Source: Proteiniphilum sp. X52 (lineage in GTDB: Bacteria; Bacteroidota; Bacteroidia; Bacteroidales; Dysgonomonadaceae). From it: a DNA stretch of 64,000 bases. Below the pieces are notes generated by a model. That model saw nothing but the letters and a program-made list of their open reading frames with translations, ran no database searches and was not told the origin of the DNA. Location: assembly GCF_003712195.1 (NCBI RefSeq), contig NZ_RDSD01000001.1, positions 248,001 through 312,000 on the forward strand, written 5' to 3'. The translations under genes and the position numbers were made by a program. Positions 34,373-55,243 of this stretch are shown here, in pieces (position 1 is the stretch's first letter; each line of letters starts with the position of its first letter).

Positions 34373-37300
34373 ATGAACAAGATATACCTCACACTGCTCC
34401 TTGTGGCACTTGCTTCAGGAGTTTTTTCCCAGACTAAACGACCGATGAACAGAGACCATTATGCGAACGAATGGGCAAAAGTGGCTGATTTTGAAAAGAA
34501 ATCACTTCCCCGGTCAGCTGCGGATGTTGTGAACACCATTTTACAACAGGCAGTAAAGGATAGAAACAGTCCTCAAATCATCAAGGCCTTGATCCATCAG
34601 GGAAAGTATGACCTGACGCTGGACGCGCAAAATGATACGCTTATTTTCCGGAACCTGAATGAAATGCTGGAGAAGAGCAGCGATGTGGTGGAACAATCGG
34701 TATTGCACTCCATGCTGGCAGAGTTGTACTTGCAGTACTATCAGAAAGACCGCTGGAATATCGACCAGCGTACCGATTTAGGTGATTTCGTGCCGGCCGA
34801 CATGAAGGAGTGGACACGCAATATCTTCTTCCACAAAGTCGTGGAACATCTGGATGCTTCTGTTGCCGCTGAGGGGGAACTGGTGGAGGTTAAAGTGGAG
34901 TCCTATGCTGCTGTGGTGGAATTGGGCAAGGCTTCGAGACGGTTTTACCCTGCCATGTATGATTTTTTGGTGCGGCGCGCCATAGAGCTGTCGGGGCAAA
35001 TCGATCAGGATGAGGACCTGAGCCGTGTGCTGGCAAGGAAGAATATCCCGCGGGAGTCGTTGTTTGCTCCGGCCGATGAGTTTGTGAAGTTGTCGTTCAC
35101 TCCCCAACAGGCGGAATATGGATTATTGATACTGGAAAATTATAGAAAGTTGTTGAGTTCCCTGTTGCGTCGAAATATGGATAGCTCGGTTTTGCTGGTC
35201 GAACTGGAAAAATCGGATTATTTGAGGGATCTCTCTTATTCTACCTATATTTCTCTGGCACGCCCGGCATTGGAGAAGTTACTGGCAAAATGGGAAGGGA
35301 ACGAAATGAGTGTGGAAATTATCGACAAGCTGTCTCAATTTTATCTACTCGAAGTCGACCAGACCAATGCGGAAGATACCATTCAACGCAGGGAGAAAAC
35401 AGCACAGGTATATGAATTACTGAAAAAAACAATAGCCGCTTTCCCGAAATACGAGCGGATATCGATACTTCAAAACAGGTTGTCGCAACTTACACAGCCC
35501 GCTTTTACGGTTACAGGGGCGGGTACTTTCCCTAAAGAGGGTGATAAAGAGTTAAAAGTGAATTTCAAAAATATAGGGTCGCTCACCGCAAAGCTGTATC
35601 GCATTCACTCACCCGTGGAGATGTTGGAAGAGAAATCGAAAGTGAGAGGCCAGATAGCCGGAAAACGTGTGTTGATCAAGGAAATACCTATATCTTTGCC
35701 GGACACGCCTGAATACTGGCAAGGAGAGACAACCTTTACGGTCAACCCCGGAGGGTTCGGTAGCTATATGTTGACTTTCAGTTCCTCCCCTGGAACCAAT
35801 GATACCCGGGAATCAGATTATTATTTTTCAGTCTCCGATATGGCTGTTTTCGCCCGGGGATATTCTGATAATCAATATGATTTTTTCGTGGTGGACAGAA
35901 CGACCGGTATTCCTGTCCCTGATGCCAAAGTCGATATTTATAAACTGCCGGCTAATTGGAACAATTCGAAGCTTACCTTGGATCAATCCATCACTACCAA
36001 TGCGTTGGGATTGGCTGTGTATCATAAAAAAATTCCCAATAACGATGTCTTTTATCACGCTGTTTCAGGGAATGACAAAGGCGCCGCATTGACTCGATTG
36101 CCCTCGGCTTTTTATAGTTACTCCGACCGGACGGTCGAATCGCGGGAAATGACAAATATTTTCACCGACCGAAGCCTCTACAGGCCCGGACAGACAGTTT
36201 ACTTTAAGGCGATACAGGTTCGCAGAGATGCCGGGCGGCAATCGGTGATTGCCGGTAAACCTCTTGAGATTGTATTGAGAGATGCCAATAACAGGGAGAT
36301 CTCGAAGCGGACCTTCACGACGAACGAATTTGGTTCGATAGCGGGTGAATTTGTGTTGCCGCGAGGTGTGCTGCCGGGACATTTCACGATCGGATCCGGA
36401 GAGGGAACGGTGGGTTTCCGGGTGGAGGAATACAAACGGCCTACCTTTGAGGTGAGGTTCGATAAAATAGAGAAAACCTATCAATTCGGTGAGGAGATCA
36501 CGCTGAAAGGAAAAGCGGAAAGTTTTTCAGGTATCAGCCTTCAACAAGCGAATGTGGAGTATGATATTACGCGAATGCAATTGTGGTGGAGGATATGGAA
36601 TGGAAGGAGTTCGGGCCACTATGCCTCAGGTAGTGTGACTACCGGCCAAGACGGTGGCTTCGAGATTACCTTTACTCCGGAAAAACCCGATAGCCAAGCC
36701 TCTTCCAAGGTGGTTTATGCCTTTGAAGTGGCAGTTGCGGTGACCGATATTAACGGTGAAACCCAAACGGGATATTATACTGTGACGGTGGGGGATGTCT
36801 CCATGATGTTGTCGTTGGACATGCCTGACAGGTGGGCAAAGGAAAGTGATGAAAAGATTATCATTTCAGCCAAAAATCTGGACGATAACGATGTGACAAC
36901 CGGCGGAACTTACCGGATTTTTTCACTTCAAGAAAACGATTCTATCGGCCCATTATCGGCAGAAGGAGAATTCAAGACCGGAGAACAACCGGCATTGAAA
37001 AAACAACTGTCAGGCTTGCCATCGGGAAAATACCGCGTGAAACTGGAATCGAAAGACGACAGGGGAAATTCCATTGTGACAGAAAAAGATATTATCCTCT
37101 TTTCTTATTCCGACAAGCGCCCGCCGATAAAAACCAACGAATGGCTTGTACAAAAGAACAGCAATTTCTCGCGCGGTAAAGACGCGGAAGTGATCCTGGG
37201 AGTATCCGACAAAGTGCATGTTTTGCATGAATTATGGCAGGGGGATAAATTGCTGGAGCGGAAATGGATCGGATTGGATAATGAAAACAGGCTCTTTTCG

Positions 37301-40282
37301 ATCCCCTATAAAGAACAATACAAGGAAGGTGTCACCCTGATGCTTACCTATATAAAGGATGAAAAGTTCTATGCGCACAGGGTGGATCTCCTTCCCGAAA
37401 AGGAGGAGACGGACCTAAAGGTGAAATTGGACGTGTTCCGTGACAAAATCCGTCCCGGCGCGGAAGAGGAATGGCGGATCACGGTAACCGGTGCCGATAA
37501 TAATCCCGCATTGGCAGAGGTGCTGGCGTCGATGTATGATTTTTCGCTCGACAAAATTTATGTGTCATCGGATTGGTATTTCTCTCCTTTTTCTTATGCG
37601 CGCTATTTCTCGAGGATGGGATTCTCCACTGATCAATCGTTCCATGCCGTCACCGCCCATAGTAATATACCCGTACAGTGGAAGAATGTTACTGCTTTTG
37701 AATTCGACCGTTTTCACTGGTTCGGTTACTCGCTTTTCTACTCCGGCAGGATGATGGTGAGAAGTGCCAAAGCGGGCAATGCGCAGCTGCAGATGTATGC
37801 CGGTGCGGAGGAGATTATCCTGGCGGAGGATCTTGCCGGTCAATCTTCGGATAGGGCAATCGCGGAAGAAATCGAGATTACCAGTGGCGAAGGAGCTCAG
37901 GCCCCCCCTCCCGCCCCTGCCTCCAGAGGGTCCGGGCAAGAAAATGAAGCCCTTCAGATACGGCGCGATTTCAACGAGACCGCTTTCTTCTTTCCCCATC
38001 TCAAGACCAATAGTAAAGGCGAAACCCAGATTGCCTTCACTGTTCCGGAGAGCAATACGAAATGGCGTTTCCGCGTGCTGGCGCACGATAAGGAACTGAA
38101 TACGGGAAAGGCCGAAGCTTTTACCGTGTCGCAGAAAGAATTGATGGTGACGCCCAATCTGCCGCGTTTCCTTCGTCACGGTGACAGGACGGCTATTTCC
38201 ACCAAGATATCCAACCTCTCTGATGGCAGCGTCAATGGCAACGTGAAACTGGAATTCTTTGATCCGGTCACGGAGGAGGTGATCCATCACATATCGATCG
38301 AGAACCGTGAACAGCTGTTCTCATTAGCGCGGGGTGCCTCTTGGGATGCATGGTGGACATTCGATGTCCCCGCCGATGTGGATATACTTGGTGTGCGGAT
38401 CTTAGCCAGTAGCGAGCAGTTCAGTGACGGTGAGCAACATGCGTTGGCCGTGCTTCCTAACCGGATGCTTGTCACCGAAAGTATGCGGATGGATCTGAAC
38501 GGTGGACAGACCAAGCAATTTTCCATGAACAGGTTGGTCGACAGATCGTCCGAAACCATACAGGATTACCGTTTGACGCTTGAATTTACTTCCAATCCCG
38601 CATGGTATGCGATACAGGCATTGCCGGTGCTGGGTGAGCCGGATAGCGACAATGCGGTTTCCTGGTTTGCTTCCTACTACGCTAATTCGCTGGGAGCACA
38701 TATCGGACAGGCATTTCCGAAGGTGAAAGCCATGGTAGAGGCGTGGAAAAAACAGGGTGGCAGTAAAGAGACGCTCCTGTCAAATCTTGAGAAGAATCAG
38801 GAGTTAAAGAGTGTGTTACTCGAAGAAACTCCCTGGGTGCTGGAAGCCCGGAATGAATCGGAACAGAAAGCGCGGCTGTCGTTGCTGTTCGACCTGAACC
38901 GTAGCCGCGACCTTACCGGTGCCGCTATACACAAGCTGTGGGATTTGCAAACCAATCAGGGCGGATGGAGTTGGTTCAAGGGCTTCCATCCCAGCGTAAG
39001 CATTACGCAATATATCCTTCACGGATTTCATCAGTTAAAACGACTGGGAGCCGCGGAGTCGTCGCAAGAGATCCTTTCAATGCAGGAGAAAGCGGTTTTT
39101 TATATCGATACTGAAGCCCAACGCCGCTTCGAGGCGCTGAAGAAATACAATAAAGAGTGGAAGAATATCAAAACCATTTCCACCACCGACCTTGAATATC
39201 TCTATGTCCGTTCAGGTTATTCCGGATATCCGTTGGACAAAGAAGGGGAGAAAATGACCGATTTTTATCTTTCAATCATCGAAAAGAACTGGACACAATA
39301 CGGATCATATGAACGCGCATTGATTGCCATGCTGATGGGCCGGAAAGGGAAAACAGGCGTGGTGGAAAGCATATTGGCTTCTTTCCGCGAGCATGCCACC
39401 CGTTCAGGGGAAATGGGCATCTATTGGGCCAATAACCGCGCGCAGGTGTTTATGTCGCAATCTGCCGTTTCGGTGCACACCTTTATCATGGATGCTTTCC
39501 GTATCGGAGGAGCGAAGGCCGATGAAATGGACGAAATGAAACGTTGGCTGTTAAAACAGAAACAGACACAGTTGTGGGAGACTACCCATGCTACGGCAGA
39601 TGCCGTATATACGCTATTGAATACCGGGAGCGATTGGTTCATCCCAGAAGGGGAAACAACCGTGACATTGGGTGAACTGCGTGTGGAACCTGAGAACAAG
39701 GAACCGGGAAGCGGCTATTTCAAGGAGTCGTGGTACCGTGCCGAGGTAACTCCAGGAATGGGTGAGGTCACGGTGAGGCATCAGGGAAACACTCCCGCGT
39801 GGGGCGCGCTTTACTGGCAATATTTCGAAGATATGGACAAGATTGAAAAAACCGACGCTTCGCTCGACGTGGAAAAGCAGCTTTTTGTGGAGCAGGCTAC
39901 CGCATCCGGACCACAGCTGGTGCGGATTACGCAGGATAGTCCATTGAGGGTGGGAGACAAGGTGGTCGTACGTCTGACGGTACGGAGCGATCGCGATCTG
40001 GAGTTTGTCCATTTGAAAGATATGCGTGCAGCCGCTTTTGAGCCGGTCAACCAGATTTCAGCTATGGGATGGCAGAACGGGATTCCCTATTATCAGACAT
40101 CGAAAGACGCCTCCACCGGTTTCTATTTCGATCACCTGCCCCGGGGTACCTATCTGTTTGAATATGCGGTGTATGTGAGCCGGCCCGGCAACTATTCCAA
40201 CGGCATCACCACCATTCAGAGCATGTATGCCCCTGAGTTCACCTCGCATACCGCCGGAATGAAAATTATTGTTAAAGAATAA
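34373..40282 (+). CDS. Alpha-2-macroglobulin family protein lacking the thioester
   Basis: Very large exported protein (1969 aa from ATG 34373). The signal peptide MNKIYLTLLLVALASGVFS has no lipobox, so it is probably periplasmic and soluble. MG2-like beta domains include TNIFTDRSLYRPGQTVYFKA (about residue 600), followed by KRPTFEVRFD; an A2M-type region starts around FFPHLKTNSKGETQIAF and TKWRFRVLAHD. Where thioester members have CxEQ there is ALPVLGEPDSDNAVSW, so no thioester can form. A terpenoid-cyclase-like helical part follows, with GGWSWFKGF. The 28 codons upstream of the chosen ATG give no signal peptide and are excluded. No pbpC neighbour is present. Confidence 0.88.
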   Translation: MNKIYLTLLLVALASGVFSQTKRPMNRDHYANEWAKVADFEKKSLPRSAADVVNTILQQAVKDRNSPQIIKALIHQGKYDLTLDAQNDTLIFRNLNEMLEKSSDVVEQSVLHSMLAELYLQYYQKDRWNIDQRTDLGDFVPADMKEWTRNIFFHKVVEHLDASVAAEGELVEVKVESYAAVVELGKASRRFYPAMYDFLVRRAIELSGQIDQDEDLSRVLARKNIPRESLFAPADEFVKLSFTPQQAEYGLLILENYRKLLSSLLRRNMDSSVLLVELEKSDYLRDLSYSTYISLARPALEKLLAKWEGNEMSVEIIDKLSQFYLLEVDQTNAEDTIQRREKTAQVYELLKKTIAAFPKYERISILQNRLSQLTQPAFTVTGAGTFPKEGDKELKVNFKNIGSLTAKLYRIHSPVEMLEEKSKVRGQIAGKRVLIKEIPISLPDTPEYWQGETTFTVNPGGFGSYMLTFSSSPGTNDTRESDYYFSVSDMAVFARGYSDNQYDFFVVDRTTGIPVPDAKVDIYKLPANWNNSKLTLDQSITTNALGLAVYHKKIPNNDVFYHAVSGNDKGAALTRLPSAFYSYSDRTVESREMTNIFTDRSLYRPGQTVYFKAIQVRRDAGRQSVIAGKPLEIVLRDANNREISKRTFTTNEFGSIAGEFVLPRGVLPGHFTIGSGEGTVGFRVEEYKRPTFEVRFDKIEKTYQFGEEITLKGKAESFSGISLQQANVEYDITRMQLWWRIWNGRSSGHYASGSVTTGQDGGFEITFTPEKPDSQASSKVVYAFEVAVAVTDINGETQTGYYTVTVGDVSMMLSLDMPDRWAKESDEKIIISAKNLDDNDVTTGGTYRIFSLQENDSIGPLSAEGEFKTGEQPALKKQLSGLPSGKYRVKLESKDDRGNSIVTEKDIILFSYSDKRPPIKTNEWLVQKNSNFSRGKDAEVILGVSDKVHVLHELWQGDKLLERKWIGLDNENRLFSIPYKEQYKEGVTLMLTYIKDEKFYAHRVDLLPEKEETDLKVKLDVFRDKIRPGAEEEWRITVTGADNNPALAEVLASMYDFSLDKIYVSSDWYFSPFSYARYFSRMGFSTDQSFHAVTAHSNIPVQWKNVTAFEFDRFHWFGYSLFYSGRMMVRSAKAGNAQLQMYAGAEEIILAEDLAGQSSDRAIAEEIEITSGEGAQAPPPAPASRGSGQENEALQIRRDFNETAFFFPHLKTNSKGETQIAFTVPESNTKWRFRVLAHDKELNTGKAEAFTVSQKELMVTPNLPRFLRHGDRTAISTKISNLSDGSVNGNVKLEFFDPVTEEVIHHISIENREQLFSLARGASWDAWWTFDVPADVDILGVRILASSEQFSDGEQHALAVLPNRMLVTESMRMDLNGGQTKQFSMNRLVDRSSETIQDYRLTLEFTSNPAWYAIQALPVLGEPDSDNAVSWFASYYANSLGAHIGQAFPKVKAMVEAWKKQGGSKETLLSNLEKNQELKSVLLEETPWVLEARNESEQKARLSLLFDLNRSRDLTGAAIHKLWDLQTNQGGWSWFKGFHPSVSITQYILHGFHQLKRLGAAESSQEILSMQEKAVFYIDTEAQRRFEALKKYNKEWKNIKTISTTDLEYLYVRSGYSGYPLDKEGEKMTDFYLSIIEKNWTQYGSYERALIAMLMGRKGKTGVVESILASFREHATRSGEMGIYWANNRAQVFMSQSAVSVHTFIMDAFRIGGAKADEMDEMKRWLLKQKQTQLWETTHATADAVYTLLNTGSDWFIPEGETTVTLGELRVEPENKEPGSGYFKESWYRAEVTPGMGEVTVRHQGNTPAWGALYWQYFEDMDKIEKTDASLDVEKQLFVEQATASGPQLVRITQDSPLRVGDKVVVRLTVRSDRDLEFVHLKDMRAAAFEPVNQISAMGWQNGIPYYQTSKDASTGFYFDHLPRGTYLFEYAVYVSRPGNYSNGITTIQSMYAPEFTSHTAGMKIIVKE

Positions 40283-42661: not shown

Positions 42662-44818
42662 ATGAAAATTCGTTTTACTTTAATTGTTTTATTGCTTTTC
42701 ACTTTCTCCGGAATATGCGTATTTGCGGGAAAAAAAGCAGGAAGTTTTGCTATTGTCGTGGATAAAGAGGTGATGGAAAATTGTGAGCCTTCCATCCACA
42801 AATATGCCGCTTCTGTGGAGGCTGATGGTCTCAGGACACATGTTATTGTGGACTGCTGGAATATCCCCGATTCCATCAGGGAAGAGTTGTATAGGTTGTA
42901 TCGGTCCGATAATCTTGAAGGTGCGGTATTTATAGGAAACATACCGGTACCCATGATTAGGAATGGTCAACATCTTACCACAGCATTCAAAATGGATCAA
43001 CGCAGGCCATGGGATCAATCTTCGGTTCCGTCCGACAGATTTTATGATGATTTTGATTTGAAGTTCGATTATCTTAAGAAGGATAGTGTCAACGAGCTGT
43101 ATCATTACTATAATCTGTCTGCCGAGGGGGCACAGTCGGTATACAGCGAGATCTACAGCGCGAGGATTAAACCCCCCGTGTACGATGGTCAAACCCGATT
43201 TGAGTTGATTGACAACTATCTGGAAAAGGTTGTGCGGGAGAAGCAAGCTGCCAGGAAAATATCCAATATCACCTATTTTACCGGTCACGGCTATAATTCC
43301 AATTGCATGGTTTCCAGAGCGGATGAGAGGATAGCGCTCACATCTCAGTTTGTCGACCTGGCAAATGGGAAGGGGGCACTGAACTATATTGACCATAGTT
43401 ATGACGATTATGTGAAACACCGACTGATGGCCGAGATGGGGAGGGAGGATCTTGATTTGGCTATGCTGCATCATCATGGCGCGGACGATGCGCAACTCCT
43501 GAATGGCAGTCCTGTTAGCAGCACGGCCAGCGCGTGGTTGGAAATGTCCAGGAAGTTTTTCAGGGGGAAAATTCGAAGTGCCAAAGACTCCCTGGCCGCG
43601 AAGCAGTATTATATAGATAATTATAATATCCCGGAATCATGGATAGACGATGTGTTTCACCCCGAGGTTGTAACGCGCGATAGTCTGATGGACGCTTCAC
43701 TGGACATACATATTGAAGACTTGAAAGATTATAAGTCAGGCGCCCGTTTTGTGATGCTGGACGCATGCTTTAACGGTTCATTCCATCTGGATGACTATAT
43801 CAGCGGGCATTATATCTTTAACCCCGGACACACCGTCGTGGTGAAAGCCAATTCCGTCAATTCTCTTCAGGATATATGGCCCTATCAGCTTATAGGACTT
43901 CTGGATCTTGGTGTGAGTGTGGGCAACTGGGCAAAGGAACTCTTTACCCTGGAGTCACATCTTATCGGTGACCCTACCTACCGGTATGTGAGCCATAGGA
44001 GTGACCTGAATGGATTGAATGAAGCCATGGCACATAGAAGGAATGATGTCAAATTCTGGAAGGGGCTTTTGAAAGATAATAATCCTGAGGTGGAAGCATT
44101 GGCCATAAAGATGCTCTTTCATAATGGGAGAATTTCATATGAGGAGCTCTACCGGATTCAGACGGACAATCTCAAACCTACCGTGCGGTTAATGGCTTAT
44201 TTCCTGATCCATAAAAAATACAACGAGATGATTGTTCCATCCATCAAAGCCGGATTGTATGACAGCTATGAGTTGATACGCCGGTTTGCTGCCAGGGACG
44301 CGGCGGACAACCAGTCACCCCTTCTCTTAGAGGACATTATTAAACTGCGCTTGTCGCCGGGGATAAGCAAAAGGGTTGACTTTCAGATCAAGGGCGCGAC
44401 GGATGTCTATCCCCGGGAGGCAGTCCTTGCCGCGTATGATGCCGAATTGAAAGGAAAAGAAGGGATATGGTACGAACGGAAAGCCCAAGAGAGAGAAAAG
44501 CTGGAGAGTTCACTCTCCGGCACTCAAGCTGATTTTGAAAAACTGCTTGATCCGGCGGTTGAATCCCGTAACAAACGTTTTACGATCACCGCGCTCAGAA
44601 ACTCCAATAATGTAACCTGCCTCGATCATTTGTTCCGTTTTATGAAAGAATCCGAGGATAATGATCTGAAATTTCTTCTGGCGGAGGCATTGGGGTGGTT
44701 TACCCATTCTTGGAAAAGGGATGATATTGTGGCTTTTTGTAAAGCGCAGGCTGCCACCGAGAGCGATGAAGCGGTGAAGAATGAGTTGTTGCGGACCATA
44801 AGGAGATTGACAGATTGA
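42662..44818 (+). CDS. Exported gingipain-like (C25) protein with HEAT-like repeats, paralog 1
   Basis: The 718 aa begin with a Sec signal peptide (cleavage after CVFA, about residue 22). The first ~445 residues resemble the gingipain catalytic region: an alpha/beta subdomain (FAIVVDKEVMEN; LEGAVFIGNIPVPMI), a strongly conserved block SSVPSDRFYDDFDLKFDYL, SARIKPP, then the candidate dyad HHG (H272) and LDACFNGSF (C369), followed by ANSVNSLQD and ESHLIGDPTYRY, parallel to DVACVNGDF and FGDPSL in RgpB. From about 450 the protein is helical with HEAT-like units (NDNLKPTVRLMAYFLI-type, ELIRRFAARDAAD, LLAEALGWFTHSWKR). No type IX C-terminal domain or lipobox. Predicted periplasmic or secreted cysteine peptidase; activity is unproven. 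Confidence 0.8.
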   Translation: MKIRFTLIVLLLFTFSGICVFAGKKAGSFAIVVDKEVMENCEPSIHKYAASVEADGLRTHVIVDCWNIPDSIREELYRLYRSDNLEGAVFIGNIPVPMIRNGQHLTTAFKMDQRRPWDQSSVPSDRFYDDFDLKFDYLKKDSVNELYHYYNLSAEGAQSVYSEIYSARIKPPVYDGQTRFELIDNYLEKVVREKQAARKISNITYFTGHGYNSNCMVSRADERIALTSQFVDLANGKGALNYIDHSYDDYVKHRLMAEMGREDLDLAMLHHHGADDAQLLNGSPVSSTASAWLEMSRKFFRGKIRSAKDSLAAKQYYIDNYNIPESWIDDVFHPEVVTRDSLMDASLDIHIEDLKDYKSGARFVMLDACFNGSFHLDDYISGHYIFNPGHTVVVKANSVNSLQDIWPYQLIGLLDLGVSVGNWAKELFTLESHLIGDPTYRYVSHRSDLNGLNEAMAHRRNDVKFWKGLLKDNNPEVEALAIKMLFHNGRISYEELYRIQTDNLKPTVRLMAYFLIHKKYNEMIVPSIKAGLYDSYELIRRFAARDAADNQSPLLLEDIIKLRLSPGISKRVDFQIKGATDVYPREAVLAAYDAELKGKEGIWYERKAQEREKLESSLSGTQADFEKLLDPAVESRNKRFTITALRNSNNVTCLDHLFRFMKESEDNDLKFLLAEALGWFTHSWKRDDIVAFCKAQAATESDEAVKNELLRTIRRLTD

Positions 44819-45000
44819 ATGTTTTAGCTAATTTTATTTTAGAAGTTGTTTTGAATTTTTTCATCCATTGTTTTTTAGCTGTTTTTTGATGGATTTGGAT
44901 TTTCATTGATTGAAATGTGGCGGGCCACTTAAATGAAATGAAAGTTCAAAGTCGCGAAAAAGGGCAAAAAACAATAGGAAAGAGTGGAAAAACAAGCGTG

Positions 45001-45035
45001 AAATAATTACTCGTAAAATTCAAAACAGTTTCTTA
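45001..45035 (+). repeat. 35-bp direct repeat, copy 2
   Basis: Identical to 42285-42319 and ending 15 nt before the TonB-receptor ATG. No TAnnTTTG promoter is visible just upstream of this copy. Confidence 0.9.
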
Positions 45036-45050
45036 ATATAGTTATAAATT

Positions 45051-47957
45051 ATGGATAGACACGGAATAGTGAATCCGGGACTCCCACCCGGGAAATTATT
45101 GTCGCGGGTATTAATTTTGATAATAGCGCTGACGTTGGGATCGGTTAAGGGATATGGCCAATCCGCTTCCACCACGTTGAGAGGTAAAGTGGTGGAGACC
45201 GGGAATGGATATGCGCCGATTGAATTTGCGACCGTGCAACTCTTGCCAACGGGACTGGCGACAGTCACTGATAGCAGGGGTGAGTTTCAGTTCGACCAAT
45301 TGTCCCCGGGGCGTATCAATGTGAAGGTCGATTTCCTGGGTATGGAAACAATCGACACTACCTTCACGATCGCATCGGGAGTTACTGAAATGACTTTCAA
45401 GATGAAAGAAAGGACCTTCAGGCTTGCCGAGGTCACGATAGTAGCCCGGGAGAGCAAAGCGGGAAAAGCCACTTCTTCCTCCATCTCAAGGCAGGCGATG
45501 GATCACCTTCAGGTCACTTCCCTGAGAGATATTATGCAACTCCTGCCGGGAGGGGTCGTCTCTCCTGAAAGCGGACTTGCCACAGCCAAGACATTTACCA
45601 TCAGAAGTCTGGGTGCGGATCGTTTGAACGCGAATATCCCCATACCTACTGACGCGGCCAATATGAATAGCATGGGAACTGCGATCGTGATTGATGGAGC
45701 TCCTTTGTCGAACAACGCGAACCTGCAAACCCTGTCTCCCTCTATTAGCGGTGGTGGAGGTTCGGTCGGCGGAGGATCTTCACCCAACTCAGGGTTGGAT
45801 GTGCGTTCACTCTCCACGGATAATATCGAATCGATCGAAGTGATCCGGGGTATTCCCTCGGTAGAGCATGGCGACCTCACCTCGGGAGCGGTTATCATAA
45901 GATCCAAGGCGGGGCGTGAACCGCTGACGATACGGCTCAAAACAGATCCCAAGATTTACCAGGCTTCGGTAAGCAAAGGGATAAGTCTGGGTGAAGGAAA
46001 AGGAAATTTGAATCTGAGCGGTGATTATGCGTATGGCATTTCGGATGCTACCCAGGCCTACGCCTATTATCAACGCGCCACCGCGCGGGCAATGTATTCC
46101 AACCGGTTCGGGAGACAACTTTTCAGCAACACTTCTTTTGATTTTTCCTTAGGCAAGGATACCCGGGAGATGAATCCCGACGACCAGCGGAACCAATTGG
46201 AAACCGGGGCCAGGGATGTGGGGGTAAGGTTCAATACCAATGGAACATGGAACCTCAATAAAGCTTGGCTGAGAAACGTGAAATATGCCCTTTCGGGTAG
46301 TTACCGGGATAAACATTCTTTTAGCAAAGAACTTCTCGGCAATGCCTTTTCCGCCTATTCAATGTCCAATACCGATGGGGCCGTGCTGAGCAACAGGCCC
46401 GGTCAGAAGGTGTACGATGCCGATGGAAAAGAATTGACCCATATCCCATCGAACGAGAGCGGGCTGATTGCCACCTATCTTCCCAACGAATATATGAGCA
46501 GGTATGATATCTACGGCAAGGAGGTCAATTTGTTTGCCAATATCAATGCTTCTTTCTCAAAGAGAGTAGGGAAGGTCACCAATAGGATATTGACAGGGGT
46601 GAACTTTAAAACCGATGGAAACCTCGGTGATGGAAAGGTATATGACTTGAACAATCCCCCTTATAGAAATCTGAGTTCGAAAACAAACTCTTCTCCCAGA
46701 CCCCGGAAGTATTCCTCCATACCTTTCGTGAATCAGTTCTCGCTATATGCTGAAGACAACCTCTTGTGGAGAGTGGCCACGCGGGAGTTGAGCGTGCAGG
46801 CGGGGCTGAGGTATGATAATATAAACGCCAAAAGTGTTTTTTCACCCCGTACCAACTTTGCCTTTGAGGTGCTGCCCGATAAATTGTGGCTGAGAGGAGG
46901 AATCGGGGTAACAGCCAAAGCGCCGACTGTGTTATATCTCTATCCTGAGGAGACTTATTTTGACTTTGTCCATTTTAACACATTGAATTCTTCTTCTGTG
47001 CCCGAAAATGAACAACTTCTTTTGGCATCCACAAGGGTGTTTAATACGCGGAACAAAGATCTCAAGATAGCAACCAATCATAAGAAGGAGGTGGGATTTG
47101 ATGTAAGGATCAATAAAATGCGTTTTTCCGTAACGGCATACGATGAGCAGTTAAAGAACGGGTACAGGTTGGGAAGGACTATCGACTCCTACCGATGGCT
47201 GGAGTATACCGAATACGAAGAGGCGGTCCACAACCCGGGAGCAATCCCGACGTTACGTGAGAAGGAGAATGGAAAACATAATATCTTCGTTTCCTTTGCA
47301 ACCCCTTTAAATGATGCCAGATCGCATAACAGGGGGGTGGAGTTCGATTTCGATTTCGGCCGCATCAACGCCATACGCACCTCTTTTGTGCTGAACGGAG
47401 CCTATATGCGTTCTACCGACTGGAATGACGGGCATAGCTTCAGTAACCAGAAGAATCGTAATGAACTGGAGAGGAATATAGGTATCTATGAAAAAGGAGT
47501 GGAGAGGCTGGAAAGGGAACGTCTGACCACTACGCTGAGAGCCACTCATAATATTCCTTCTATCGGATTTGTGCTGACCACCACTGCCCAGGTCAGTTGG
47601 TTAAACAAGTACTGGAATGAGTATGGCAATGACACCACTTTCGTTGCTTATATCTCAAGGTTGGACGGTAAGGTGAAACCTTTCAATGACGACGTCCTGC
47701 AAGCAAATCCGGATGAGTTTTCCTATTTGTTTGAAACCCGGAGTTCCACCCGGCATGTGATGGAGTCCTATTTTCCTGTAGTCCTGCTTAACTTCCATCT
47801 GACAAAAGAGATAGGGGAGAACCTGAAGGCTTCGTTTTATGTGAATAATATGTTTAACCGCAGGCCGTTATATGAAACCAAGCGTTCGCCCGGTTCATTT
47901 ATCAGGCTCAATATTCCCATGTATTTCGGCTTTGAGCTTGCCATGAAATTAAAATAA
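45051..47957 (+). CDS. TonB-dependent receptor with carboxypeptidase-D-like N-terminal domain
   Basis: Outer-membrane active transporter of 968 aa. A signal segment (RVLILIIALTLGSVKGYGQ) is followed by a CarboxypepD_reg-like domain (about 42-125, LRGKVVETGNGYAPIEFATV), a plug domain (about 140-290, with DIMQLLPGGVVSPE, AIVIDGAPLSNNANL and SIEVIRGIPSVEHGDLTSGAV) and a beta-barrel ending PMYFGFELAMKLK. A glycine/serine-rich loop interrupts the plug at about 230-250. No SusD partner is present; instead a DUF4876 lipoprotein follows after 44 nt. Substrate unknown. Confidence 0.93.
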   Translation: MDRHGIVNPGLPPGKLLSRVLILIIALTLGSVKGYGQSASTTLRGKVVETGNGYAPIEFATVQLLPTGLATVTDSRGEFQFDQLSPGRINVKVDFLGMETIDTTFTIASGVTEMTFKMKERTFRLAEVTIVARESKAGKATSSSISRQAMDHLQVTSLRDIMQLLPGGVVSPESGLATAKTFTIRSLGADRLNANIPIPTDAANMNSMGTAIVIDGAPLSNNANLQTLSPSISGGGGSVGGGSSPNSGLDVRSLSTDNIESIEVIRGIPSVEHGDLTSGAVIIRSKAGREPLTIRLKTDPKIYQASVSKGISLGEGKGNLNLSGDYAYGISDATQAYAYYQRATARAMYSNRFGRQLFSNTSFDFSLGKDTREMNPDDQRNQLETGARDVGVRFNTNGTWNLNKAWLRNVKYALSGSYRDKHSFSKELLGNAFSAYSMSNTDGAVLSNRPGQKVYDADGKELTHIPSNESGLIATYLPNEYMSRYDIYGKEVNLFANINASFSKRVGKVTNRILTGVNFKTDGNLGDGKVYDLNNPPYRNLSSKTNSSPRPRKYSSIPFVNQFSLYAEDNLLWRVATRELSVQAGLRYDNINAKSVFSPRTNFAFEVLPDKLWLRGGIGVTAKAPTVLYLYPEETYFDFVHFNTLNSSSVPENEQLLLASTRVFNTRNKDLKIATNHKKEVGFDVRINKMRFSVTAYDEQLKNGYRLGRTIDSYRWLEYTEYEEAVHNPGAIPTLREKENGKHNIFVSFATPLNDARSHNRGVEFDFDFGRINAIRTSFVLNGAYMRSTDWNDGHSFSNQKNRNELERNIGIYEKGVERLERERLTTTLRATHNIPSIGFVLTTTAQVSWLNKYWNEYGNDTTFVAYISRLDGKVKPFNDDVLQANPDEFSYLFETRSSTRHVMESYFPVVLLNFHLTKEIGENLKASFYVNNMFNRRPLYETKRSPGSFIRLNIPMYFGFELAMKLK

Positions 47958-48001
47958 GTATCCCTGCTGTTTGGGACAGGGTGGTTTAAAAAAATAATCA
48001 T

Positions 48002-49222
48002 ATGAAGAACTTAAGATATATATATGCGATGCTTCTCCTGTGCATCTTTGTGGCTGTCTCCTGTGAGCAGTTTCGAGATGTTTCGGGGGTGAAGCGGGTG
48101 GAGTTGTTGAGCGCGACGATTGATATTTCGTATGACCTTCAGGGAGCGCCTATGCCGGACATTGTGAGGGTAAGGCTGACGAATTTTGCGGAAAGATATG
48201 AACTTGTCACTGCTGTATCCCCCGAAGGGGATATTAGGATAGACGAAATTATTCCCGGTATCTATACCGTTACTGTAAGTGCCGAGAAGAATGAGGATGG
48301 TTTTACCTATAATTATAACGGTAATGTTGTGAATGTGGATATTGTGACCGACAAGAAGCGGATAAATGTGAATGTGGGCGCATCCCGTTCAGGAGCGCTT
48401 GTCTTCAAAGAGGTCTATTACTGCGGATCACGCACGCCATCCGGTGGATCTTATTTCCGGGACCAGTTCTATGAGATCTACAATAACAGTGAGACCGGGC
48501 AAAATGTAAGAGGACTTGCCATAGCGCTCCTGAACCCTCTGACAGCCACGGCAAATCTGCCGGTATGGCCCGGCCCGGATGCGGATAAATATGTATATGC
48601 CCTGCAGATATGGCAGGTGCCAGACGATAAGGATTATCCGTTACAACCCGGGGAGTCGATCATTATCGCGCAGATGGCAGATAACCATAAAAAAGATAAT
48701 TTGAATCCCGGCTCACCGGTGAATCTGTTGAGCGCCGAGTTTGAGACATTTGTCAAGACCACTTCGCTGATACAAGACAATCCGGCCATTAATATGACCA
48801 TGGCTTTTTGGCCTTCGCCTACGGCTCAATGGTTGACTACCGTCTTCGGAGGGGCATTTGTTATTTTCTTTCCTCCTAACCCCATCGATCCTAACAGCCC
48901 TACCGAAACCGTGAGTCCTGAAGGCTCTACCGCCAAAAGTTACCGGATACCCATCGATGTGGTGGTGGATGCGTTAGAGAATGTAGGTAATCCCAACCAG
49001 ATGCAACTCAAACGTGTGCCGGCTGTGCTTGATGCCGGAGCTGCGACGGTGGATGGAACTTATCTGGGTAAAAGTGTGGCCAGAAAAGTGAAGGAAACTT
49101 TGCCCGACGGAAGGGTTGTTCTGCAGGACACCAATAACAGCACCGACGATTTTGAAGTGATGGATCCGCCGGTTATCAGGAGATACGATGCGAAAGCACC
49201 ATCCTGGAATACATGGAAATAG
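48002..49222 (+). CDS. DUF4876-type lipoprotein
   Basis: A 406-aa lipoprotein: hydrophobic signal with lipobox VAVSC (C21). An N-terminal Ig-like region (about 30-125) of the type RVELLSATIDISYDLQG ends in GIYTVTVSAEK. The larger domain has FKEVYYCGSRTPSGGSYF, QFYEIYNNS and PGESIIIAQMADNH, a lamin-tail-like arrangement. I recall this as DUF4876, a Bacteroidota family found beside TonB receptors; molecular role unknown. By position it may be the surface-exposed substrate-binding partner of the receptor. DUF6850 gene follows after 19 nt. Confidence 0.82.
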   Translation: MKNLRYIYAMLLLCIFVAVSCEQFRDVSGVKRVELLSATIDISYDLQGAPMPDIVRVRLTNFAERYELVTAVSPEGDIRIDEIIPGIYTVTVSAEKNEDGFTYNYNGNVVNVDIVTDKKRINVNVGASRSGALVFKEVYYCGSRTPSGGSYFRDQFYEIYNNSETGQNVRGLAIALLNPLTATANLPVWPGPDADKYVYALQIWQVPDDKDYPLQPGESIIIAQMADNHKKDNLNPGSPVNLLSAEFETFVKTTSLIQDNPAINMTMAFWPSPTAQWLTTVFGGAFVIFFPPNPIDPNSPTETVSPEGSTAKSYRIPIDVVVDALENVGNPNQMQLKRVPAVLDAGAATVDGTYLGKSVARKVKETLPDGRVVLQDTNNSTDDFEVMDPPVIRRYDAKAPSWNTWK

Positions 49223-49241
49223 AGCTTAACAGGAGATAATT

Positions 49242-50813
49242 ATGAATAGAGGAAATAATAGATATATGAAAGGAGGTTTGGCAATTGTCTTAGCCTTTCA
49301 ACTCACACAGTATGCTCCGGCACAGGAGCAGGGAACGCTTGCTTCTCCGGCTTCCATCGAATTGCGGAAAGCCAGGGCGACATGGTTGAATACCGGCAAC
49401 GGTGCCGGTGTGGCGCTGGACCATTTAGGCGACTTCGGCTCGCTTGGAGCGGCATATCAGATGGTGAACGGAGATTTTAAAAGAGTGCAGGAGGGAGCCA
49501 AAGAGAGTACGCTGATGGTGGATACCGAAGGTGGACGGCGACTAGGTAAAGCTTATGCCTGGGGCCGGTTCTCCTACCATAACACTACTACCCGCGACTC
49601 GAAATTCAACACGGCCATGCTTGATCCCTACAGGGGGATACCATTCTTTCCGGTTGATCCCAATAGCAGTGATTGGAAAAAACAGGATTACAATCTGGAG
49701 ATGAAGGTGTCGTCGAAACCGTTTTTCGACAGGTATCTTCTCGGTATGCAAGCGGCATACAACACCCATACGGGCGCCAAACAGGTCGACCCCCGGTCGG
49801 AGATCTACTATTACACCATCAATGTGAAGCCTGGGATAGTGGCTCTTTTGCACAATCAGGAAGTGGGTTTGAACTTCGAGTATGAGAACATGATCCAGGA
49901 AACCAGGCATACCAATAGCAACAGCCAGATGCACCAGGACGTGTTCGTGATGAAGGGCCTGGGGAATCATTATACGGCAGTGATCGGAGGTTTGCAGTCA
50001 TTGGGAGGGTTTATGTATCATGCCAACAAAGTGGGGGGTGAACTGCAGTACACCTACCATTTTCCGGCACTTCGTCTTTTCGCTTATGGTGGATACACCT
50101 ACCGCGTGGAAGACGTGATAAGGGATATCACCAAACCGAGAAAAGAGGGTGCCATCAAAGAGAAGACCCTTTACGCTAACGTTGCTTTGGTACATGAAGG
50201 AATGAATCTGAACCGCATCGACCTGTCTGTCAGGAGTAACCGGATGGATGCCATAGAATTCGTGCAAGTCCTGGATAACAGTTTTGAGGTGCAGCAATGG
50301 GTGGATGTCTATAGCAGCATCCGCTCTACTTACAACCAGGATGATATCCGGCTCTCTTATGATTTCTATAAAGGAACCGGCCATGAATATAAATGGAAGA
50401 CCGGTTTGTTTGCCAGCTATCGCGCCAACGATGACCTCTATATTATGCCTGAGTCACGGAGGATCATCAAGAATCTTTATATGGGTGTGAACGGCAAAGT
50501 AAATATGGAAGCCGGCCGTTCGGGTACCTGGACGCTGGGTGCCGATTTTGCCTATAAGAACCATCTCGAGGGGGATTACCGGTATGGGGGTGTGGATCCG
50601 CAATCAATGGTGATCACCCAATTGATGACACCCGATTTTGAATACCTGAAACAGAATTTTTATAAGTTCGGTGGATTTGTCAGTTATTTTACGGGCATTG
50701 ACAATCAGAAATCAACGGGGGTTTTCGTGAAATTGGCTGCCAATTACTATAAACCGTCAGAAGGTGAGGGTGACAGGTTGATAGCTGATCTGGGAGTGGG
50801 TCTTACATTCTAA
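49242..50813 (+). CDS. DUF6850-type outer-membrane beta-barrel protein
   Basis: The 523 aa have a signal peptide (GGLAIVLAFQLTQYAPAQ) and mostly alternating amphipathic beta strands with aromatic ends (AYAWGRFSYHN, LRLFAYGGYTYRVED, FGGFVSYFTG), finishing in LIADLGVGLTF with the terminal Phe expected of BAM-inserted barrels. I match it to the family annotated as DUF6850 outer-membrane barrel; function unknown. It is 10 nt before peptidase paralog 2, so receptor, lipoprotein, barrel and two peptidases form one probable operon. Confidence 0.8.
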   Translation: MNRGNNRYMKGGLAIVLAFQLTQYAPAQEQGTLASPASIELRKARATWLNTGNGAGVALDHLGDFGSLGAAYQMVNGDFKRVQEGAKESTLMVDTEGGRRLGKAYAWGRFSYHNTTTRDSKFNTAMLDPYRGIPFFPVDPNSSDWKKQDYNLEMKVSSKPFFDRYLLGMQAAYNTHTGAKQVDPRSEIYYYTINVKPGIVALLHNQEVGLNFEYENMIQETRHTNSNSQMHQDVFVMKGLGNHYTAVIGGLQSLGGFMYHANKVGGELQYTYHFPALRLFAYGGYTYRVEDVIRDITKPRKEGAIKEKTLYANVALVHEGMNLNRIDLSVRSNRMDAIEFVQVLDNSFEVQQWVDVYSSIRSTYNQDDIRLSYDFYKGTGHEYKWKTGLFASYRANDDLYIMPESRRIIKNLYMGVNGKVNMEAGRSGTWTLGADFAYKNHLEGDYRYGGVDPQSMVITQLMTPDFEYLKQNFYKFGGFVSYFTGIDNQKSTGVFVKLAANYYKPSEGEGDRLIADLGVGLTF

Positions 50814-50823
50814 ATGCTATTGA

Positions 50824-52992
50824 ATGAGCGTAAGTAAAAAGATATTTTTAATTATAGCCGGTGCGTTTTTTCTTCCTCTCTCCCTGTTTGCCGCAGGGAA
50901 GGGATTTGCAATCGTGGTCGATCAGCAGACATATAATGCCTGTAAACCAGAGATAGACCAATACAAATCCATGCTGGAAAGGGAGGGATTCTCCTCGTAT
51001 ATCGTTTGTCGGGAATGGCGGAATCCTGAGGAGGTGAAAAATATCCTGTACGGGATGTACCGGAACCAGTCGCTTGAAGGCGCTCTTTTCATCGGTGATA
51101 TCCCGATCCCGATGATACGGGATGCCCAACATCTTACTTCTGCCTTTAAGATGGACCAGGAACGGTTTCCTTTTAGAGAATCTTCGGTGCCGTCCGACAG
51201 GTTTTATGATGATTTCGACTTGCAATTCGATTATCTTGGGCAGAAAGAGGATGATCCGCTATTTCATTACTATTCTCTGAATGCCGGTTCACCGCAGTTT
51301 ATCAAAAGCGATATCTATACCGGCAGGCTGAAACCAACCCTCCAGGGAGAGGAAGGTTACCGGCAGATCAGGGCTTATTTCACGAAGCTGCGGGTAGAGA
51401 GAAAGAAGGAGAATGTGTTAGATGTCATTACCTCCTACACCGGTGAGGGGTCTTTTTCAAACAGTATGACCGCTTGGAGAGACCAGGGATTTCTGATGAA
51501 AGAGCAGTTTCCCCAGGCATTCAGGGATAAGAATTCCGCGAAATTCCTCTTTTTCGCGATGTATCCCTTTATGAAAGAGTTGGTGGTGGAAGAGTTAAGG
51601 CGTGAGGAGATGGATCTCATGTTTTTCCATGAGCATGGCACCCCTGACAGGCAGTATCTCACAGCGACGCCTCACAGTAAAGGAACGGAAGAGTACCGGG
51701 ATGCGGCTAGACGTGTTTTCCGTCAGTCGCTCAAAAGAATAAAAAGTCCTGAAGAGAGGACCAAGGCCATGGAAGAGTGGATGTACCACTATCGGATAGA
51801 CTCGGTATGGTTTGCGGATGCTTTTTCCATCGAGAAAATAGAGGAGGATTCCCTGATGGATCTTCGTACCGGTATCGTTCTGGATGATATTCCCTTGATT
51901 GCACCCAATGCCAGGATGGTGATCTTCGATGCTTGTTATAACGGAGACTTCCGTGAGGATCGTTATATCGCGGGAGAGTATATTTTTGGCGGAGGAAAGA
52001 CCCTGGTGACTTTCGGAAACAGTGTCAATGTATTGCAGGACAAAAGTTCATCCGATCTGATGGGGATGCTCGGGCTGGGTTTCCGTGTGGGAGAGTGGGC
52101 CAGGGAGATCAATATCCTGGAGTCACATATTATCGGGGATCCTACTTTCCGCTTTTCCGGAGAGAAAGCTTCACAAATCGATCTCCACTGTGCCGATACC
52201 GCATATTGGCTGTCGGTGTATGAAAGAGAGGATCATCCTGACCTGAAAGGGCTGGCGTTGCGTAAGTTGTTCCATTTGGAATATGGGGAAATGCCGGAGC
52301 TGCTGGTTTCCACCTATCGTCAATCTCCATGGCATGCTGTCAGATGGCAGGTATATGATTTGCTGCAACATTATAGCGGGAATGATTTTGCCGAACTGAT
52401 AGAAAGTTCCATCCACGACCCTTACGAGTTCATTCGCCGCAAGTCTGTTTTCTCGATGGGTAGAATCGGTTCCGATCGTTTTATCCCCTCTCTGGCATCG
52501 GTTTATCTTAATGATTATCTGGATGAGAGGGTTCATTTCAATTCCATCTTCACGTTCGATCTGGTGGATATGGACAAACTGGAAGCGGAAGTGAAAAGAC
52601 AACTGGAAGAGAATACCTCCTATTCCGACAAGGAACGTGTCTGGAAAGAGTTCAAGGGCAGGATCGATTCCCGGAAGAGGATTGCCGTGATGGCGGATGA
52701 TGCGGTCAACAAGGAGAAGCCGTTGAAAACAAGACTCTCCGCTGTGAAAATGTTACGAAACTATACCTATCATAACCGGGTAGAGGATTATCTTAAGGTT
52801 ATTGCCGACGACAACGAAGAGGTCTCTCTGAGGATGGCTCTTGCCGAGGCATTGGGATGGTTCTCTCTCTCTTATAAACGCGATTACATAGTTGAAGTTC
52901 TCAAGGCCGTGGCTGCCATGCCGCAGACTCCGGAAGCGCTGAAAGGCGAATTGCTCAAAAGCATAGCCAGGATTGAGGTCTATATGCGATAA
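50824..52992 (+). CDS. Exported gingipain-like (C25) protein with HEAT-like repeats, paralog 2
   Basis: The 722 aa share the layout of paralog 1: signal peptide (FLIIAGAFFLPLSLFA), FAIVVDQQTYNACKPEIDQY, SSVPSDRFYDDFDLQFDYL, the candidate catalytic His in FFHEHGTPD (H271) and Cys in VIFDACYNGDF (C371), then GNSVNVLQDKSS and ESHIIGDPTFRF. DACYNGDF is very close to the gingipain active-site sequence. An earlier GHG loop present in paralogs 1 and 3 is TGEG here. HEAT-like helices fill about 450-722, ending ALAEALGWFSLSYKRDYI. Start ATG 50824 is 10 nt after the DUF6850 stop. Confidence 0.82.
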   Translation: MSVSKKIFLIIAGAFFLPLSLFAAGKGFAIVVDQQTYNACKPEIDQYKSMLEREGFSSYIVCREWRNPEEVKNILYGMYRNQSLEGALFIGDIPIPMIRDAQHLTSAFKMDQERFPFRESSVPSDRFYDDFDLQFDYLGQKEDDPLFHYYSLNAGSPQFIKSDIYTGRLKPTLQGEEGYRQIRAYFTKLRVERKKENVLDVITSYTGEGSFSNSMTAWRDQGFLMKEQFPQAFRDKNSAKFLFFAMYPFMKELVVEELRREEMDLMFFHEHGTPDRQYLTATPHSKGTEEYRDAARRVFRQSLKRIKSPEERTKAMEEWMYHYRIDSVWFADAFSIEKIEEDSLMDLRTGIVLDDIPLIAPNARMVIFDACYNGDFREDRYIAGEYIFGGGKTLVTFGNSVNVLQDKSSSDLMGMLGLGFRVGEWAREINILESHIIGDPTFRFSGEKASQIDLHCADTAYWLSVYEREDHPDLKGLALRKLFHLEYGEMPELLVSTYRQSPWHAVRWQVYDLLQHYSGNDFAELIESSIHDPYEFIRRKSVFSMGRIGSDRFIPSLASVYLNDYLDERVHFNSIFTFDLVDMDKLEAEVKRQLEENTSYSDKERVWKEFKGRIDSRKRIAVMADDAVNKEKPLKTRLSAVKMLRNYTYHNRVEDYLKVIADDNEEVSLRMALAEALGWFSLSYKRDYIVEVLKAVAAMPQTPEALKGELLKSIARIEVYMR

Positions 52993-53002
52993 AACCCGTG
53001 AG

Positions 53003-55243
53003 ATGAAAAAAATTGCTATTTTTTTATGTTGTATACTGCAATGCAGTCTCTTTTTGCTCCCGGCGGCAGAGCGCGTCATCCCCGCGGGTGGAAAGTTCGA
53101 TACCAGATTCCTCATAGTGATCGACTCCAAGAGTTTTGAGCAGGCTTCTGCTGAGGTAATGGCATATAAAAATGTGCTGGAAGAACAGGGGCTTGGAGTG
53201 GTAGTCATGGTGGGTGACTGGAAATCTCCTGATGATCTAAGGCGTGAAATTGAGAAGGTATACAGGAAAAAACCGGTGATGGAGGGAGCCGTCTTTATCG
53301 GCGATATTCCGGTGGTACGTGTCAGGAATTTCCAACACGCTACTACCGCCTTTAAGATGAATGAAGAAACCTTTCCTATTGAGGAGTCTTCTGTTACCAG
53401 CGACCGTTTTTATGATGACCTCGACCTGAGGTTCGAGTTTCTCAGTGTGGACGAAAAAAATCCCCGCCACTTCTATTATCGGCTTAGGGAAGACTCCCCC
53501 CAGGTGATAGAAAGTGATTTTTATTCGGCCAGGATGTTACCCCCTTCAGATATGGGAACGGATGTGTACGAGTTGCTCAGAAAATACCTTCGTAAAGTGG
53601 TAGAAGCCCATAAAGAGGTGAATTATGCCGATAATATCAAATTTTTTAACGGGCACGGATATAATTCGGACTGTTTGACCGTATGGCACAATCAGCAATT
53701 TGTTCTTAAAGAGCAGTTTCCCGAAGCGTTTCGCTCCTCCCGCGGAAATGCGTTCTATAACTTCCGGCAGGATCCCTTCATGAAATACAACCTTTTTGAA
53801 AGGTTGCAAATGCCCGGTACTGACCTGTTTGTTTTCCATGAACATGGTGCATTTGACATCCAGTATATAAACGGGGATTATCCGGCTCCCAATGCCATTG
53901 GCATGCGCAAGGAGGGAATTTACGGTCCCATGGAAGTTCTTTCCATATCCCTGCGAAACAGATACCGGAGATATACCGGTGAGCGCGGAGAGTCTTTTGC
54001 GGAAACCACTATCAGGGAATATAATCTCTCTCCCGATTTTTATAGTGGGAAGTTGATTGACAGCACCAGAGTGAATGATTCGATTTTCTCTGCCGATATC
54101 AATATTGCGCTTTCCGATTTACGGAATCTTAAACCCCAGCCGCGGATCACTATTTTCGATGCATGTTATAACGGTTCTTTCCATCAACCCGGTTATGTGG
54201 CAGGTTACCATATTTTTTCGGATGGTAACACAGTGGTTGCCCAGGGTAATACGGTCAACGTGTTGCAGGACAAATGGTCAATGGAACTGATAGGTATGAT
54301 CGCGGAAGGAGCGAGGATCGGATTTTGGCAAAAAGAGTTCCAGTTCCTGGAATCTCATCTTATCGGTGATCCCACCTTCCGGCTTACCCCGGGATCAGCT
54401 GCCGGAGATCGTAGCCGGGAAGCGGCTGTCCTGAACAGAAACCTGGCACTGAATAAGGGGAATAACAAAATTTGGTTGGAATACCTGAAGAGCGGCAATC
54501 CCAACTGTCAGGCCATCGCATTGAAGCAGCTCTCCACAAACAAGCCTGGGAATTATGATGATATTTTATTGCGCTATTTGAAGGAGAGTCCTTTTTACAG
54601 TGTGAGGATGCAGGCTTTACAGCGGATCATTTACTCTTCCGGCAGGAACCTGACGCAAGCCCTTCTCCTTGCCCTGGATGATCCGTATGAGTTGATACGA
54701 AGGAATGGGGCGAGATTCGCCGGTTATTCGGGTGATGAGGAACTGATCGGGCCGTTGGTGCAAACACTCCTCTTTTCAAATGAAAGCCAACGGGTACAGT
54801 ATGCAGCCCGGAATTCCCTTCCGATGTTCGATCTGGAGAAGATCAGCAGTGAGATAACCCGCCAGGCTGCCGCTTCCCATCTGCAAAACCCTTCGGACGC
54901 GGCTGCGCAGGCTATATCTTACTTTTCGGCACAAAAAGCCAGAAACGACAAGTTGTTGACAGTGATCCAGGACAAAACCGCGGAGCAATCGGACAGAATT
55001 TCCGCCATCCGTTTTCTGAGAAACCATAATAACCATTTGCAGGTCACCCAATTATTAGAGATTTTAAAAGACGACAGCGACGATACGGAGGTAAGGGTTG
55101 TCCTTGCGGAAGCATTGGGATGGTTCCGTTGGAGTGTGAAACGAGAGCAGATAGTGGAGGCGCTGAAAACTATCCGAAAAGACAAACAGACTCCCAAAAA
55201 ACTGCGGGATAAGATAGGTCAGAGTATTCTCAGGTTGAAGTAG
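53003..55243 (+). CDS. Exported gingipain-like (C25) protein with HEAT-like repeats, paralog 3
   Basis: From ATG 53003 the protein has 746 aa; an upstream in-frame ATG (52973) would overlap paralog 2 and hide the signal peptide (KKIAIFLCCILQCSLFLLPA). It has FLIVIDSKSFEQ, EGAVFIGDIPVVRV, SSVTSDRFYDDLDLRFEFL, the first loop FFNGHGYNSD, the candidate catalytic His in FHEHGAFD (H281) and Cys in IFDACYNGSF (C388), then GNTVNVLQDKWS and ESHLIGDPTFRL. HEAT-like repeats (YDDILLRYLKESPFYSVRMQ, ELIRRNGARFAG, VLAEALGWFRWSVKR) follow. It starts 10 nt after paralog 2 and ends the locus. Confidence 0.82.
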   Translation: MKKIAIFLCCILQCSLFLLPAAERVIPAGGKFDTRFLIVIDSKSFEQASAEVMAYKNVLEEQGLGVVVMVGDWKSPDDLRREIEKVYRKKPVMEGAVFIGDIPVVRVRNFQHATTAFKMNEETFPIEESSVTSDRFYDDLDLRFEFLSVDEKNPRHFYYRLREDSPQVIESDFYSARMLPPSDMGTDVYELLRKYLRKVVEAHKEVNYADNIKFFNGHGYNSDCLTVWHNQQFVLKEQFPEAFRSSRGNAFYNFRQDPFMKYNLFERLQMPGTDLFVFHEHGAFDIQYINGDYPAPNAIGMRKEGIYGPMEVLSISLRNRYRRYTGERGESFAETTIREYNLSPDFYSGKLIDSTRVNDSIFSADINIALSDLRNLKPQPRITIFDACYNGSFHQPGYVAGYHIFSDGNTVVAQGNTVNVLQDKWSMELIGMIAEGARIGFWQKEFQFLESHLIGDPTFRLTPGSAAGDRSREAAVLNRNLALNKGNNKIWLEYLKSGNPNCQAIALKQLSTNKPGNYDDILLRYLKESPFYSVRMQALQRIIYSSGRNLTQALLLALDDPYELIRRNGARFAGYSGDEELIGPLVQTLLFSNESQRVQYAARNSLPMFDLEKISSEITRQAAASHLQNPSDAAAQAISYFSAQKARNDKLLTVIQDKTAEQSDRISAIRFLRNHNNHLQVTQLLEILKDDSDDTEVRVVLAEALGWFRWSVKREQIVEALKTIRKDKQTPKKLRDKIGQSILRLK

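Follow-up and report, generated by a model that had tools for sequence, protein, structure and literature searches.

A six-gene locus in Proteiniphilum sp. X52

We analyzed a 64,000-nucleotide (nt) stretch of the Proteiniphilum sp. X52 genome (contig NZ_RDSD01000001.1, positions 248,001 to 312,000), referred to here as the window. Within it, three paralogous exported proteins, P1, P2 and P3, are encoded around a core of three genes for a TonB-dependent receptor, a DUF4876 lipoprotein and a DUF6850 protein (Table 1). The intergenic gaps are 232, 44, 19, 10 and 10 nt in gene order. The initial annotation of this DNA had given the last five genes a spacing of 10-44 nt, which is exact, and the P1 gene sits 232 nt upstream of the receptor gene. 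It had also described the DUF6850 protein as a barrel, and an outer-membrane barrel is probable. The length of P3 is counted from an ATG; the mechanical open reading frame (ORF) begins at a TTG at position 52973.

Table 1. Coordinates and assignments of the six genes in the window
Gene product	Position	Strand	Length (aa)	Features	Evidence
P1, exported C25-like/HEAT paralog	42662..44818	+	718	H272/C369	ORF, Pfam, motif positions
TonB-dependent receptor	45051..47957	+	968		Pfam CarbopepD_reg_2 1.3e-14, Plug 2.8e-11
DUF4876 lipoprotein	48002..49222	+	406	Cys21 at lipobox; BT_1938 relative	Pfam DUF4876 E 1.3e-44
DUF6850 protein	49242..50813	+	523	probable outer-membrane barrel	Pfam DUF6850 E 5.9e-98
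P2, exported C25-like/HEAT paralog	50824..52992	+	722	H271/C371; used for structure model	
P3, exported C25-like/HEAT paralog	53003..55243	+	746	H281/C388	ORF, Pfam, motif positions

The P proteins have a predicted gingipain-type fold

The similarity among P1 to P3 spans the entire proteins, with identities of 33 and 34% to P2, far beyond chance, and they are the only matches to the family at E<=0.01 in their own genome, the weakest at 2e-126. Four motifs occur in the same order in each: S-V-[PT]-S-D-R-F-Y-D at residues 121/121/130 (P1/P2/P3), H-[HE]-H-G at 270/269/279, D-A-C-[FY]-N-G at 367/369/386, which places the cysteine at 369/371/388, and E-S-H-x-I-G-D-P-T at 431/433/450. We collected relatives by scanning genome contigs with peptide patterns around the cysteine and the SDR block. 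The scan found 503 relatives, and the loci analyzed are the best 80 of these and hence near relatives. A locus therefore qualified if one or more of its copies carried a pattern; the other copies, and five distant relatives, were not selected in this way. The predicted catalytic histidine and cysteine are both kept in all 197 P proteins, across all lineages, with a median spacing of 95-100 residues.

A structure model of P2 supports a gingipain-type (C25-like, clan CD) catalytic fold. The gingipain-type match begins at residue 25, H271 follows a strand at 265-269, C371 follows a strand at 365-368, and helical repeats extend from about residue 450 to the end. This match emerged when Foldseek candidates of the same kind were aligned a second time; a plain Foldseek search of the model placed no gingipain among the first 50 matches listed. 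The Pfam model HEAT_2 matched the C-termini of all three proteins and exceeded its curated cut-off in two. The shared motif order noted in the initial annotation is confirmed, and its proposed caspase-like (gingipain-type) fold, conserved histidine and cysteine, and HEAT C-terminus are supported.

Sequence models did not detect the relationship seen in the structure model. PF01364, the Pfam family of the gingipains, matched neither window P1 to P3 nor the five distant relatives at E<=1, and nothing among the Pfam and NCBIfam models gave a sign of a C25 relation in P proteins. A profile search of the PDB gave 25 matches, all on the HEAT part and none showing a C25 relation. Profile-profile alignment against 30 large C25 proteins (or the 29 that could be trimmed) reached a best probability of 0.8%. 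The same 30 proteins, which we take to be PorU-type by size, did not match the P-family profile (best 2.0 bits). One PF01364 protein, L148_02, matched that profile at 43.8 bits, and 2000 shuffles reached at most 4.5. At this locus, L148:3812-5359 encodes a C25 peptidase with a type IX secretion system (T9SS) tail and forms a sequence bridge between PF01364 and the C25-like/HEAT family. The P family is C25-like by fold, yet it is not a gingipain family, and PF01364 does not match it.

Alternatively, the peptidase fold of the P proteins might be dead, leaving them a binding or scaffold role in the periplasm without proteolysis. Their peptidase activity is a prediction, HEAT domains are binding platforms, and D369 is replaced by N in 37 of the 72 proteins of the P3 clade described below. 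The unbroken retention of the histidine and the cysteine speaks against a dead fold, which we regard as very improbable.

The three paralogs are old and hold nearly fixed positions

Window P1, P2 and P3 each fell in a separate clade in a tree of the 197 P proteins, from which 13 of 201 P frames were omitted for lengths outside 650-800 aa. We labelled each protein by its site relative to the core, using our own gene calls. All 66 proteins with the label "first after the core" belong to the P2 clade, which has 71 members. All 61 labelled "second" belong to the P3 clade of 72, together with one "third" and four "before". Of the 32 proteins labelled "before", 28 fall in the P1 clade (32), and an adjoining group of 17 holds 15 of the 16 labelled "third". 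The usual site of P1 is before the receptor gene, and that of P3 is second after DUF6850. The P paralogs are old and stand in a nearly fixed gene order. Three copies at one locus had been called unusual; we scored three in 43 of 80 loci, so this number is usual in the family.

Residues in the active-site loop differ among the clades. All 71 P2-clade proteins have D at position 375 and R at position 377. Position 375 is S in 21/32 P1-clade and 71/72 P3-clade proteins, and position 377 is H in 19/32 and 63/72. Position 408 is W in 31/32 and 65/72 of the same clades and S in 53/71 P2-clade proteins, and position 397 separates P3 (Q in 72/72) from P1 (K in 29/32). These clade-specific residues suggest that P1 to P3 probably differ in cleavage specificity. 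A further alignment (A2) began with 187 P frames of 680-800 aa, thinned to 146, of which 104 were used with the three window proteins.

The P genes recur with the receptor core

The receptor, DUF4876 and DUF6850 genes were all in range in 64 of the 80 P loci. By our reading, a contig end cuts 10 of the 16 remaining loci. One of them is L090, where retention of an antisense frame also left P unscored. An antisense frame probably displaced a core gene in five others (L068, L076, L096, L101 and L106), and only L062 is a real exception. In a sample of the phylum, with the window's own genome counted, P was found in 7/296 genomes and DUF4876 in 29/296, and all seven were among the 29. In a sample of the order, P was found in 17/393 genomes, again counting our own and including a contig-end fragment (G646) and the C25 peptidase noted earlier (G663). 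We tested 23 of 33 genomes with P hits: DUF4876 was present in 22 and DUF6850 in 22, and, by coordinates that we read ourselves, they lay within about 10 kb of P on the same contig in 21, the exceptions being G646 and G663. The gene set noted in the initial annotation therefore recurs in other genomes.

Within the genus, 11 of 36 relatives have P. In nine genomes beyond the 23 tested, all of the same genus, at least DUF6850 adjoins P. The nearest named relative among the best 80 of 503 is a Proteiniphilum metagenome-assembled genome (L036), whose P2 is 80% identical. In two loci of the same genus (L023 and L024), frameshifts split or fuse receptor and P genes, possibly through assembly error or decay. 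Only one of the 80 titles names another phylum, that of a 4.2-kb contig titled Spirochaetia (L052), which is probably mis-binned.

A periplasmic location is likelier than a surface location

By a rough rule, 194 of the 197 P proteins have a hydrophobic N-terminus. No model of the T9SS sorting tail matched the three window P proteins or the five distant relatives. In three distant loci that we scanned, a neighboring BNR-repeat protein has the tail and P is without it. These Bacteroidota loci, L130, L131 and L133 (and also L132 and L134, judged by size and look), encode with P a YCF48/BNR-repeat protein about 740-770 aa long, which is a possible surface partner. The hydrophobic N-terminus and the absent sorting tail make a periplasmic location the likelier one for the P proteins. 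A rough lipobox pattern occurs in 8 of the 197, several of them unconvincing; some P proteins at L062:5232-9701, L065:1864-4029 and L061 have a lipobox-like start and may be lipoproteins.

The initial annotation favored surface or secreted gingipain-like peptidases that cut proteins outside the cell, with the receptor importing the product. The gingipain fold and the predicted export agree with this model, as do the SprA gene in the window's genome and the true T9SS-tailed C25 peptidase known in the order (L148). The missing tail in the eight proteins, the HEAT helices that end the model and the placement of the tail on the BNR-repeat neighbor argue against it. We find surface cutting unsupported and quite unlikely. 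The missing tail and the helical end of the model fit better with import first and periplasmic cutting afterwards. PF01364 had no match in the window's genome, and we rejected this as a sign that the T9SS is absent, since the SprA gene is present.

The core is also found without P genes

By profile, all three core genes were present in each of 18 distant DUF4876 loci, with some members scoring low, and six of these loci also have P. Among the proteins scanned in the 12 P-less loci, a di-haem cytochrome c peroxidase occurs in L138, L139 and L144, and ATP-binding cassette (ABC), DUF4857 or PepSY_TM-type genes occur in L135-L137. These neighbors suggest interchangeable release modules. We built a tree of 48 receptors that drew on 30 chosen from the 80 loci. 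P-adjacent receptors fall into two groups, one a clade of 31 within the Bacteroidales set and the other made up of four outside it, and P-less receptors are placed elsewhere. The window receptor belongs to the clade of 31, every member of which lies beside P genes. This grouping indicates that P is tied to particular receptor lineages and that the core can serve other routes.

A link to particular receptors and a near-fixed gene order would fit a dedicated client equally well, in which case the P proteins would act in maturation or quality control, processing or removing the receptor, the lipoprotein or the barrel of their own operon, and would have no part in handling a ligand. The existence of the same core without P in other lineages counts against this idea, and three paralogs with different loops seem excessive for one client. 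We regard it as unlikely.

A probable link to iron through the BT1933-39 cluster

The window DUF4876 lipoprotein is 46% identical over 278 aligned residues to BT_1938 of Bacteroides thetaiotaomicron, which has a solved structure (4q1z), and BT_1938 groups with the window lineage. In a published iron study, the BT1933-39 cluster is induced under iron starvation, and the Porphyromonas gingivalis and Prevotella intermedia loci that the study groups with it are reported as induced too. Its passages on the cluster list a TonB receptor and a HEAT protein, name the products only by domain and mention no peptidase. Peptidases of gingipain fold seem to be encoded in this iron-starvation cluster of the best-studied gut Bacteroides, where domain databases record only HEAT-repeat proteins; three such genes would fit its gene count.

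The operon might serve uptake of peptides or amino acids and not of iron, with imported oligopeptides trimmed by periplasmic peptidases. Three specificities would suit mixed peptides, and many of the 80 locus titles name gut or rumen samples. Induction by iron starvation in all three published species argues against this, and we consider it improbable.

In the window, the TTTG/TAnnTTTG promoter had no match. Generic scans gave 41 promoter sites against a shuffle mean of 21.5 and 20 terminators against 13.1, none of which marks the start or the end of the operon.

A candidate protease-associated import system

We give about an even chance to the reading that the operon encodes a protease-associated outer-membrane import system, in which uptake of an iron ligand is followed by periplasmic cutting by three C25-like/HEAT peptidases. 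The TonB receptor, the DUF4876 lipoprotein and the DUF6850 accessory barrel would take up an iron-bearing ligand. Most likely this is a small intact iron protein, or else a large peptide, which would then be cut by three cysteine peptidases of gingipain fold, exported by Sec and located in the periplasm. A HEAT solenoid, replacing the gingipain immunoglobulin (Ig) domain, would perhaps hold the substrate, and P1 to P3 would act as complementary peptidases with probably different specificities. Such a system would very probably serve iron.

Several points weigh against this import reading. The genome has a SprA gene, and the periplasmic location is a prediction from two sequence features. Iron regulation of the window operon would be carried over from the B. 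thetaiotaomicron cluster, and the deeper nodes that join BT_1938 to P loci are weak (0.689 and 0.37). A Fur-like 19-mer was not enriched in the upstream regions of 62 relatives compared with one shuffle each. Since the core is also found without P, it does not depend on proteolysis and may handle a different ligand or a metal other than iron. At L133, P lies some genes from the core and the receptor groups with a P-less one. L062 (22 kb) has five successive P genes with no core adjoining; another contig of that genome carries the core with four more, giving nine copies in total. The window receptor had no match to PDB sequences at 0.01, the operon has no inner-membrane carrier, and the proposed substrate is a candidate.

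More broadly, Bacteroidota may import intact iron proteins and dismantle them in the periplasm with a new C25-like/HEAT family, which would be an independent invention of protein piracy. We hold this proposal tentatively and think it somewhat more likely wrong than right. If true, protein-piracy import reaches another phylum with another peptidase class, including a model gut commensal, and the DUF4876/DUF6850 outer-membrane trio gains a testable function. Literature searches on C25 peptidases with HEAT repeats, gingipain-like proteins with TonB, protease-associated import in Bacteroides and relatives, and PepSY gave nothing on the P family among the matches listed.

The operon is flanked upstream by genes for a bacterial alpha-2-macroglobulin, a DUF1573 protein, MeaB and tRNA-Glu, and downstream by YebC and PheT. 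The alpha-2-macroglobulin (34289-40282, 1997 aa) lies two genes upstream of MeaB's neighbor operon, and no CxEQ thioester motif turned up in a simple search of its sequence. It is probably outside the import system because its homologue stays near MeaB in several relatives.

Comparison with known systems

We compared the window system to known peptidases and importers. Separase (C50) is eukaryotic, unlike the P proteins, and its helical part is N-terminal. The gingipains RgpB and Kgp have a prodomain, an Ig domain, a T9SS tail and a strict specificity for Arg or Lys. The P proteins have no prodomain, as the model match starts at residue 25, they carry HEAT repeats instead of the Ig domain, and they lack the tail. 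They also differ from gingipains in the median of 95-100 residues that separates histidine from cysteine and in having no PF01364 match. BT1933-39, in its published description, resembles the window operon in its DUF4876 lipoprotein, TonB receptor and HEAT protein.

The window system would work like Fus yet is no member of it, because the peptidase class differs and a likeness to FusA lacks sequence support. The Fus peptidase is an M16 enzyme, whereas P is C25-like/HEAT and mostly present in two or three copies. The window operon adds DUF4876 and DUF6850 and, unlike Fus, is without an equivalent of FusB or FusD, both of which have roles in the Fus system. In a published account, whose gene-cluster section covers Proteobacteria, the FusC and PqqL peptidases are periplasmic, and expression of Fus and YddB/PqqL is iron-dependent (PMC6793856), as is published for BT1933-39. 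The peptidases of both systems are two-part, a clam-shell M16 enzyme in Fus (PMC6793856) and a predicted catalytic plus HEAT domain in P. In Fus (FusA/FusC) and YddB/PqqL (PMC6793856), a TonB receptor gene lies beside a gene for an exported peptidase, and in the window such a gene lies beside those for the predicted exported peptidases.
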